Positions 2,651 through 25,621 of a stretch of DNA of 57,237 bases are shown here, piece by piece. The stretch covers positions 1 through 57,237 of the forward strand of contig JAIOZF010000008.1 in assembly GCA_021740745.1 (NCBI GenBank), in the 5' to 3' direction. The stretch's first letter is position 1, and every line of letters starts with the position of its first letter. The position numbers were made by a program, and so were the translations under genes. This DNA comes from Crocinitomicaceae bacterium (GTDB lineage: Bacteria; Bacteroidota; Bacteroidia; Flavobacteriales_D; Crocinitomicaceae). The notes below the pieces were generated by a model. That model was not told where the DNA came from. It was given only the letters and a program-made list of their open reading frames with translations, and did no database searches.

Positions 2651-3163
2651 CTATTTGTAAATTTTTCTAAAATTTCGAATTGCAAAGCGCATTGCAGGTT
2701 GTAAATTGTTTTCTTCTTTTAAATCTAAGATACCATTTATTTCGGGCAAGATCTCAGGATATTTTTCAACGAATTGTTTGAGCTTGTATAAACCATAGAC
2801 CTGCAATGCTACCTTATTCGTATCATCCTTTACAAAATCAAGCAGGCGATCCAAAAAAGCACTTTCTTCATGTTCGATGAATGGAAGTGAAACACAAGAA
2901 TTTAATAGGTTCCGCAACACACTTTGGTTCGCTGAACTTAAGATGGTATCAATAAATTTATGTTGATAGGTTTCAATGAGCTGTGGTGCTTTTCTGGTAA
3001 TATGAATCAATAACCATGAAGCGTATTCAGGATAGGGATGAGGTTCTTTGCTTCCGGATACTTCAACTAATTCAGCAATGTCAGAAGGTTTTTCAATGAA
3101 TTGATTCGCAAGTCGAGTGAATTCGCGTGTTTTATATTCCTTATCAATGAGTTCTTTTACCAT
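2651..3163 (-). CDS. HEAT-repeat-like helical protein
   Basis: A 170-residue soluble protein with no signal peptide. The sequence is almost all predicted amphipathic helices in pairs of about 35-40 residues (for example PEYASWLLIHITRKAPQLIE and NQSVLRNLLNSCVSLP), the pattern of HEAT/ARM-like solenoids. No catalytic motif is visible. It follows the GtrA-family gene by 21 bases on the same strand and is probably co-transcribed. A protein-binding role is an inference from the fold only. Confidence 0.6.
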   Translation of the reverse strand: MVKELIDKEYKTREFTRLANQFIEKPSDIAELVEVSGSKEPHPYPEYASWLLIHITRKAPQLIETYQHKFIDTILSSANQSVLRNLLNSCVSLPFIEHEESAFLDRLLDFVKDDTNKVALQVYGLYKLKQFVEKYPEILPEINGILDLKEENNLQPAMRFAIRNFRKIYK

Positions 3164-3184
3164 CTCAAAAAAGTAAGACTGAAT

Positions 3185-3664
3185 CTAAACTGACTTCGCT
3201 TTTCCGAAGCTGAATTTACTTTGAAAAATATAGCTGTAGAGAACTGTGATAAGCACTGTCACAAGTTTAGAAGGAGTTGGGTAAAACTCAAGTACATCAA
3301 CAAACAATTTCATGAACAAGTAACTAATCAAAATAGCGCCCATCGAAACAATAAAATAGCGCTGGAATTGTATTTTTCCTGGAATATCCGAATCAGGAAA
3401 GGTGATGTATTTGTTTAGTAGAAATCCAGTAAGGAAAGTAATCGGAAAGACAAAGAACAATGAAGCGATGTGGGGAGTTAACACGATAAAGTTGAGATCC
3501 ACATTTTCTTTGTGGAATACAAAATGATAAAAAACGAAATACAAAACAGTATCAAACACTAGGTTTCCACCACCGCATGCGGCATACCGATATGTTTTCA
3601 AAGGCATGAATGACTTGAAAATGAAATAAAAGGAATCGACTAAGCGGATGATCAACTGCTGCAT
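3185..3664 (-). CDS. GtrA-family membrane protein
   Basis: A 159-residue protein with four predicted membrane segments, the size and topology of GtrA/DPMS-type flippase partners. The family opening is visible in YRYAACGGGNLVFDTVLYFV near residue 25. Members are thought to help move polyprenyl-linked sugars across the inner membrane for glycosylation of lipopolysaccharide or surface polymers. No glycosyltransferase gene lies beside it, so its substrate cannot be inferred. It is the first gene of a short minus-strand pair with the helical protein at 2651. Confidence 0.85.
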   Translation of the reverse strand: MQQLIIRLVDSFYFIFKSFMPLKTYRYAACGGGNLVFDTVLYFVFYHFVFHKENVDLNFIVLTPHIASLFFVFPITFLTGFLLNKYITFPDSDIPGKIQFQRYFIVSMGAILISYLFMKLFVDVLEFYPTPSKLVTVLITVLYSYIFQSKFSFGKAKSV

Positions 3665-8416: not shown

Positions 8417-9295
8417 TTAAATCTTAACAGGAGTAAGGGTGTAGCCTTTTTGTTCCAATAAACGAATGACACCTTTTGGTCCACCAAGGTGACCAGCACC
8501 AACGGCAATAAATAATTTTTCTTTCTTCGCCATTTCCTCAATCATGGGGATCCAACGTTCGTTGCGGTCATCTAAAATTGTTGCTTGGTCCTCGGTAATT
8601 GTTCCGCCTTCTTCTTGAATCATTAAGTACAATGAATCGACGTTTTGACCTTGATACAACTTTTGCATTTTCTGTGTGACTTCAATGCCTTTCTTCGGAT
8701 CACGAATGGTTTCCATCACCATTTCTGTTTGCTGTTCCTTGGTCATTTTATCGAAGATGCCCATTTGCTCAGCAATGGTTTCAAATCCTGCAATGGTAAT
8801 GTCGTTTTCTCGGGCAATTTTTTCAAAACTCATCTCGTACGATTCTGTTTTTCCCATGAAATGAATTTGTGTCGCCATCTGCACAACTACAAAAGGTTTC
8901 ATTTTTGACATGGTCTTCGTGAATGCTTCTTCACTCATATTGAGTTCTGCTTTCGCCCAAACTAAGATAGAATCCATTTGTTCCTTGCTAAAATAATCGG
9001 CAAATGTTCCATCTGTCAAGGTAACATATTTCAAAGCTTCTAGTTGATTGGGAAGTCCAGCCAATTCCATCACCAACTTATCGGTTTTCTTGACGATTTT
9101 CTCCAGTTTATCAGGGAATATGAAATATTGCTTCTCAATCAAATGCATTGTTCCAAAAAGATAAGATCCTTTTTGAATTCCTGGACCTTCAATTTTCCAG
9201 AGCAATGAACTTTCTTGCATTGGAAATGCCGTTGTTGCTTGTGAAAATCCAACTAAGGCAATGAAAAACGAGAGAAGTGATAAAATAAATTTCAT
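8417..9295 (-). CDS. TraB/GumN-family protein
   Basis: 292 residues with a signal peptide ([19 protein letters not shown]). The family hallmark is the N-terminal SSLLWKIEGPGIQKGSYLFG followed by TMHLI near residue 50, and the C-terminal FIAVGAGHLGGPKGVIRLLE. These carry the paired Gly/His motifs of the TraB/PrgY/GumN superfamily (Tiki-like), some members of which are metal-dependent peptidases. It is likely periplasmic. The start ATG shares one base with the stop of the methyltransferase gene (TAATG), a sign of translational coupling. Substrate unknown. Confidence 0.88.
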   Translation of the reverse strand: MKFILSLLSFFIALVGFSQATTAFPMQESSLLWKIEGPGIQKGSYLFGTMHLIEKQYFIFPDKLEKIVKKTDKLVMELAGLPNQLEALKYVTLTDGTFADYFSKEQMDSILVWAKAELNMSEEAFTKTMSKMKPFVVVQMATQIHFMGKTESYEMSFEKIARENDITIAGFETIAEQMGIFDKMTKEQQTEMVMETIRDPKKGIEVTQKMQKLYQGQNVDSLYLMIQEEGGTITEDQATILDDRNERWIPMIEEMAKKEKLFIAVGAGHLGGPKGVIRLLEQKGYTLTPVKI

Positions 9296-24953: not shown

Positions 24954-25055
24954 AATTGAAACTAAAATTGATTTATTTGATCAAAACCACAAAAACAGTT
25001 TAGTAAAGTCGAAACAAATTTAGAACATTTGCAAAGTCATTTCCACAAACGGTGG

Positions 25056-25184
25056 ATCTTATTTATAAAGAAGAGGTTAGAGACAGGCTCTGTGATCCTC
25101 CGGCAAATAACTTTAAGTCCCGATTTATCGGGGTTGGAAAACCGTTGCCAATTCCTGATTCCGAATGTTCGGATGAATATAAAC
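25056..25184 (+). ncRNA. SAM-I (S-box) riboswitch
   Basis: The core words of the SAM-I aptamer appear in order: TTATTTATAAAGAAGAGG, an AGAG/CTCT hairpin, CTGTGA, CCTCCGGCAA, a P3 stem with CCCGAT/ATCGGG, GCCAATTCC, a P4 stem with TCCGAA/TTCGGA, and the closing GGATGAATATAA. P2 is GAGG (25073-25076) with CCTC (25097-25100). P1 pairs the TTAT near the start with ATAA at the end. In other bacteria these elements shut off methionine, cysteine or SAM genes when SAM is plentiful. Here it is followed 9 bases later by a Cys/Met leader peptide and then a truncated lyase. Confidence 0.85.
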
Positions 25185-25192
25185 TAATTGTA

Positions 25193-25318
25193 ATGAAAAG
25201 TATCGTATTTTCTTCTTACCAAATGACAGTTCGTCCCACAGTGGATGACAAAAAATTAATTTCTCTTTTTGTTTCTAATACCATGTGTTGCATGTGCTGT
25301 TGTTGCATGTGCTGGTAA
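25193..25318 (+). CDS. Cys/Met-rich leader peptide (41 residues)
   Basis: An ATG at 25193 opens a 41-residue peptide that starts MKSIVFSSYQMTV and ends MCCMCCCCMCW before a TAA. Seven Cys and three Met occur in the last 11 codons. Such a run at the end of a tiny ORF is the hallmark of a transcription-attenuation leader, where ribosome stalling reports shortage of charged tRNA-Cys or tRNA-Met. It lies right after the SAM-I riboswitch and upstream of a Cys/Met-metabolism gene fragment, which fits. A longer in-frame ORF from 25052 crosses the riboswitch and is not real. The attenuator hairpin itself is not clear, perhaps because the locus is decayed. Confidence 0.75.
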   Translation: MKSIVFSSYQMTVRPTVDDKKLISLFVSNTMCCMCCCCMCW

Positions 25319-25357
25319 TCTGTTTGCTCCACTAAGCAACTTTCAGTATTCCAAGCA

Positions 25358-25621
25358 TTGAACAGCTCCTGTTCTCCTATTGTCCCAATTTTTTCATTTG
25401 CAAATAAATTCTTAGATCAATTGGAATTATTTTCGTTGACGGCCAATTTAGGTGATACAAGAAGTATCGCAACACATCCGGCTTCGACGACACATTCCAA
25501 ATTAACCCAGGAACATCGATTAGATGTAGGTATTTCCGATGGATTGGTTCGATTATCAATAGGTTTGGAAAATAAAGAGGATATTTGGTTAGACCTAGTA
25601 AATGGACTAAATTTGGATTGA
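25358..25621 (+). pseudogene. C-terminal fragment of a MetY-type PLP lyase
   Basis: The frame encodes KFLDQLELFSLTANLGDT, then RSIATHPASTTHSKL, then GLVRLSIGLENKEDIW, which is the C-terminal end of O-acetylhomoserine sulfhydrylase/cystathionine gamma-synthase enzymes. Those enzymes are about 400-430 residues; only the last 75 or so remain. The N-terminal part with the PLP-binding Lys is absent, because the fragment begins about 80 bases after the leader peptide stop. There is no ATG at a sensible start. An internal deletion between the leader and the C-terminal part explains the arrangement. It is non-functional as an enzyme. Confidence 0.85.

Follow-up and report, generated by a model that had tools for sequence, protein, structure and literature searches.

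The pairing of a SAM-I aptamer with a cysteine-rich leader peptide is widespread among relatives of this Crocinitomicaceae bacterium. The copy in the window (the whole stretch of 57,237 nucleotides analyzed here) is a recent relic, the recently orphaned 5' control region of an operon for homocysteine synthesis and sulfur uptake. In relatives that keep the genes, the pairing probably works by ribosome-mediated attenuation at Cys and Met codons, with translation of the leader under control of the SAM aptamer. For the broader proposal that, across several Bacteroidota families, a SAM riboswitch regulates translation of a Cys/Met-coded leader rather than of an enzyme, forming a two-input sulfur switch (SAM and Cys/Met-tRNA) for sulfur-assimilation genes in which the aptamer determines whether attenuation by tRNA charging comes into play, we put the chances at about even.

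The leader ORF of the window (25193–25318, forward strand) has 41 codons and encodes MKSIVFSSYQMTVRPTVDDKKLISLFVSNTMCCMCCCCMCW, ending with a TAA stop codon. Its translation ends exactly as a sequence-only reading of this DNA had it, in the run MCCMCCCCMCW. The run (25283–25315, forward strand) contains seven Cys, three Met and one Trp, with TGY in 7 of its 11 codons, and provides the presumed control codons; the preceding body of the ORF (25193–25282, forward strand) changes freely among relatives. Only 4 of the 381 ATG-initiated ORFs of 20–99 aa on both strands of the window (1%) have at least three Cys among their last 16 residues, and none of the remaining short ORFs exceeds 4 Cys there, versus 7 in the leader. 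At a Cys background of 1–3%, at least seven Cys in 11 codons are expected with a P-value of ∼3e–12 to 7e–9. The leader sequence occurs as a single exact match in the whole genome.

The leader starts 7 nt 3' of a SAM-I (S-box) riboswitch aptamer (25060–25185, forward strand), which belongs to RF00162 by covariance model (52.3 bits versus a gathering score of 44.4, E-value 3.3e–9). SAM binding by an aptamer of this type is a property predicted from the sequence. In the expression platform, the leader peptide takes the place of the enzyme gene as the first downstream ORF. The sequence-only reading had named neither this aptamer nor the breadth of the system in relatives. Compared with the relatives read, the core helix of the window aptamer carries AT for the CC of GGCAACC and GT for the GG of GGTGCC, a change that is unusual against all of them; pairing is preserved, as A-U and U-G. 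An Rfam search of the leader and spacer returned no structured RNA except SAM. The window genome has one second SAM-I aptamer, upstream of metH.

The sequence-only reading had also proposed that the body of a lyase was lost behind the leader. A C-terminal piece of an enzyme is indeed present downstream, but the whole operon was deleted and the piece comes from its last gene, metZ, which was not the original neighbor of the leader. BLASTN aligns window positions 25012–25319 with 2995–3304 of the corresponding locus of a congener (L319, genome G082) and positions 25402–25588 with 8460–8646; across the junction (25319–25399, forward strand) ∼5.1 kb of operon are absent relative to L319. In that locus, DUF6929, an AI-2E transporter, a small protein and the leader come in this 5' order, and the operon of ∼5 kb comprises the leader, metX, hom (homoserine dehydrogenase), two Sulf_transp (PF04143) genes, OsmC and metZ. 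The flanking genes past metZ are those found in the window, and gene order outside the deletion is the same. The operon was removed directly after the leader stop codon, and the window leader is an orphan with no gene left to regulate. The remnant (25400–25618, forward strand, 73 codons) is the C-terminus of a metZ-type sulfhydrylase and matches PF01053 positions 312–380 (E-value 1.9e–20); an assignment to MetY is ruled out by 44% identity, versus 85% to L319 metZ. No metX-type gene was found in the window genome, and its two other full-length PF01053 enzymes score below the OAH-sulfhydrylase cut-off.

Survival of the leader after loss of the enzyme had been ascribed either to recent decay or to a role of the peptide itself, and the data favor the former. 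Codon differences between the remnant and L319 metZ are 38 synonymous and 10 non-synonymous, which indicates that selection on metZ ceased only recently. The intact ORF and run could also be explained by selection that keeps the leader for its own function now that the operon is gone, but the metZ remnant is equally undecayed, so recency suffices. Moreover, five congeners without metX (G017, G063, G074, G090 and G098) have a single SAM-I aptamer, that of metH, and no leader-type aptamer. Hence, the control region normally goes together with the operon, which gives no sign of an independent role of the peptide, and we consider such a role very improbable. Relative to G082 and the locus L087, the run of the window differs only in third bases of TGY codons, one other codon and the last codon.

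To place the leader among its relatives, we used a set of aptamers collected without reference to any leader: bacterial and archaeal species genomes were scanned with a pattern derived solely from the aptamer, and loci of a family survey were added. This gave 111 distinct aptamers with a start codon; a short ORF comes next in 99 of them, and metX itself in 12. The window leader is a positional homolog of these 99 ORFs, which mostly start 7–17 nt past the aptamer. A Cys/Met run (at least three Cys in the last 16 residues) ends 85 of the 99, so in most relatives that keep the genes the run is neither absent nor frame-broken, in line with the earlier proposal of a leader peptide tied to Cys/Met supply. 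Examples are MKHT...FLMMACCMCCCCCMC, MEKKQF...MRCMCCCCMCC and MKNNLV...MTCCCCMCCCCMCC. Counted back from the stop, codons –4 to –7 are Cys with a frequency of 0.59–0.77, which drops to almost 0 past –14; Met is overrepresented at –2 and –8. Nearly all leaders precede metX, metY or both. In the 12 leaderless loci, the metX AUG occupies the place of the leader AUG, and the AUG behind the aptamer is therefore likely the translational target of the riboswitch. In one clade, a conserved ORF of ∼73–79 aa (..NLLGEEAHRNFLEVQAEFGIAQRGG..) separates the leader from metX/metY (L079, 6006–6242, reverse strand; L091, 5405–5641, reverse strand; L145, 2068–2286, forward strand).

Presence of a run varies with the gene downstream. 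None of the 31 shorter-form SAM-I aptamers of the same family, nearly all of them directly before metH, is followed by a Cys run. In a class-wide sample of 60 loci, Cys runs were found at 0 of 29 metH loci, 0 of 9 metB-like loci and 4 of 9 metX/metY loci, while both cysH loci (L278 and L284) have one; metH-linked SAM-I aptamers without a leader run number more than 50 in all. Run-bearing leaders thus precede the sulfur-assimilation genes metX, metY and cysH and, in one genome, also an amino-acid permease and an ATP-grasp-like gene. In this high-GC complete genome (G284), leaders are present at four of five SAM-I loci, metH alone being without one; they start with AUG before metY and with GUG before cysH, the permease and the ATP-grasp-like gene (L276, L277, L278 and L280). 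These leaders possibly make up a SAM and Cys regulon. At L284, sequence reading points to a serial layout, in which an aptamer with an apparent terminator of its own (AGCACC...GGTGCT TTTTTT) is followed by the Cys leader.

Cys-run leaders without any Rfam aptamer precede cysH in two genomes of one genus (L291 and L292; leaders MTHIKQHHSFIKSAGMMCCFCCCC and MTPIKQHHSSIASNRMMCCCCCCC, at about 1230–1500 in reading orientation). Here the Cys run is able to pair with CA-rich RNA directly 5' of the cysH start codon, which suggests translational attenuation of cysH. Such aptamer-less leaders are not a rule for sulfate reduction, as they occur at only 2 of 28 cysH loci, in that one genus. Separately, a 12-codon leader, MKKRMCCCCYEK or a close variant, accompanies a SAM-I aptamer at L057, L058, L060, L061, L078, L120, L127 and L182. 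The gene that follows is Glu/Leu/Phe/Val-dehydrogenase-like (PF00208), an unexpected target of SAM/Cys control; its best NCBIfam match is the tryptophan dehydrogenase ScyB, far under the cut-off.

Comparison of the run with the rest of the ORF, which the sequence-only reading had proposed as a check, indicates that the run is kept as amino acids while the remainder of the peptide drifts. In 14 independent pairs of relatives, pN is 0.064 in the run versus 0.159 in the body at equal pS (Fisher test, P-value = 6e–7), giving pN/pS of 0.24 versus 0.61. The runs use TGC and TGT almost equally (294 versus 241), and TGY triplets in the last 16 codons are distributed over the three frames as 526/181/14. 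A scan of the class with the exact DNA pattern of the run returned mostly chance-level matches, which means that the run is not conserved as DNA. These data bear on the idea that the TGY repeats are a structural element of the RNA and not coding. The run does pair with nearby RNA in L106, L167 and L291; however, the free interchange of TGC and TGT, the frame bias and the low pN/pS speak against this idea, the run is largely seen in frame in relatives with an intact operon, and pairing between the run and downstream RNA exceeds that of shuffles only a little (mean z –0.37). We regard it as hardly credible.

The peptide might instead act as sensor or effector, its Cys-rich nascent chain arresting the ribosome or binding metal or sulfide. 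The extreme Cys density would fit this, and a copper-responsive uORF is known, as the consulted part of one report describes (PMC9426467). But the number and spacing of Cys vary widely, with interruptions at differing places and no fixed binding motif; the linked genes serve sulfur assimilation, not metal export; and Met is enriched alongside Cys, as expected of control codons. Neither the fixed Cys spacing nor the linkage to metal-handling genes that would mark a metal-responsive Cys-rich leader was found. An effector role is improbable, and the chelation of metals or sulfur species suggested earlier finds no support in the variable length and spacing of the run or in its neighboring genes. 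Two features of an attenuator are present: a short ORF rich in control codons by the stop that are conserved as codons, and, in relatives, the cognate genes metX, metY and cysH downstream.

In the classical trp and his leaders, control codons lie by the stop and one hairpin arm is masked by the terminating ribosome. We found more structure in the regions after the leader stop than in shuffles (mean z –1.09, n = 84). A hairpin has its 5' arm at +0 to +11 from the stop, where pairing probability is 0.54/0.57 versus 0.41/0.37 in shuffles, and 5'-arm probability falls at +18 to +29. A ribosome on the stop codon covers the +0 to +11 stretch, and one stalled within codons –4 to –7 leaves it free. 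Covariation of the first two hairpins is seen in one clade, where both sides are changed in 15 cells, a value reached by 0 of 500 shuffles. Competing hairpins are clearly predicted in L106 and L167. There, the run is predicted to pair with region 2 in the untranslated state; a stalled ribosome would leave region 2 to pair with region 3 (GGGTGCA with TGCACCC); and a ribosome at the stop would allow a 3:4 hairpin (GCCGAT...ATCGGC) before a U tract, which lies ∼5 nt past the hairpin. In the untranslated fold of L106 the first pairing is present and the last absent. Sequence reading of L278 gives GGCCACG:CGTGCC versus GTGCCC...GGGCAC with AACCTTTTT, the first pairing being absent from minimum-energy folds. 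The attenuator hairpin anticipated in relatives thus stands in part: structures by the stop codon fit attenuation and the hairpin arm there is general, but clear competing alternatives are limited to few loci. As in trp and his attenuators, control codons stand by the stop and 1:2, 2:3 and 3:4 alternatives exist in L106/L167; unlike in them, the aptamer is predicted to control whether the leader is translated, and most loci have no recognizable U-tract terminator.

An intrinsic terminator is a weak candidate for a general OFF device, terminator-like sites being present in 11 of 84 spacers versus 4.7 expected from shuffles. Masking of the stop codon gained 10.4 pairs versus 9.2 in shuffles, barely above. 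Searches for terminator sites and masked-stop folding found no general OFF structure among the 84 spacers, and given these near-shuffle values an OFF structure, be it a terminator, Rho or a translational block, is still hypothetical for most lineages. Pairing of the run with RNA around the start of the following gene was likewise rejected as a general device, with no signal beyond ∼90 nt. A conserved GGGCCC occurs in or near a hairpin loop between the leader and metY at L042, L048, L067, L072 and L037; at L067 and L072, part of this hairpin alternatively pairs with a downstream CCC preceding a T tract.

The mechanism we propose would run as follows. When SAM is abundant, the terminal helix of the aptamer, which ends ∼7 nt 5' of the leader AUG, would be stable and leader translation hindered. 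When SAM is low, the leader would be translated, and the ribosome would meet Cys codons interspersed with Met codons just 5' of the stop. Scarcity of charged tRNA-Cys or tRNA-Met would stall it in the run, and the RNA from the stop onward would form a hairpin favoring expression. With both tRNAs plentiful, the ribosome at the stop would mask the 5' arm of this hairpin and an alternative OFF structure, a terminator in some lineages, would form. For metX, a gate strictly requiring that SAM and Cys both be low would be an awkward fit to metabolism unless the Met codons count too. Their presence in the run answers the objection that a Cys-only gate would halt methionine synthesis when Cys is ample.

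The sign, with starvation switching expression on, is suggested by the sensible direction for cysH and by the geometry of L106/L167. The opposite is conceivable: expression would require the ribosome to translate the Cys run and reach the stop, and stalling at scarce Cys would shut down metX/metY. Because a SAM-bound aptamer would block the leader and SAM must repress, a translated leader meaning ON is the simplest fit, and the inhibitory role could fall to the hairpin at the stop codon. Yet leaders of this type also precede cysH, a gene expected to be expressed more when Cys is short, and the post-stop hairpin in L106/L167 and L278 competes with a terminator-like hairpin and does not form it. 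We consider the opposite sign unlikely and starvation-induced expression the probable direction.

Leaders with a Cys run are known from actinobacterial cys operons, which they precede (PMC1262725). In the part of that report consulted, they resemble the present ones as short ORFs with Cys codons near the stop, sulfur genes downstream and no evident terminator, but they lack a SAM aptamer, and no interspersed Met pattern is reported there. Ribosome-mediated attenuation has been proposed for the uORFC-8-2 motif upstream of cysS in Rhodobacterales (PMC8632094), which likewise has Cys codons in a uORF; however, these are just two, in tandem, the target is a tRNA synthetase gene, and the motif has an intrinsic terminator and no riboswitch. 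Within the same phylum, leader-peptide attenuation is reported generally for amino-acid operons of Flavobacterium psychrophilum, with no mention of Cys leaders or SAM-riboswitch coupling in the portion consulted (PMC9723704), and is suspected in Bacteroides (PMC7366714). We found no report of a SAM riboswitch paired with a Cys leader in the open-access literature, an absence that is no proof.

Riboswitches and leader-peptide attenuators are usually seen as alternatives; this type of locus places one behind the other. The usual arrangement has the riboswitch end next to the leader start codon, and at L284 the apparent terminator of the riboswitch precedes the leader. Natural gains and losses of the leader (metX at the same AUG in the 12 loci, the cysH leader without an aptamer) make the logic testable by comparison. 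The window itself is a case of regulatory parts outliving the operon they served. Overall, the proposed switch offers a specific prediction of sulfur control for little-studied aquatic lineages and, if true, would account for the way in which methionine and cysteine synthesis are coordinated in Bacteroidota.
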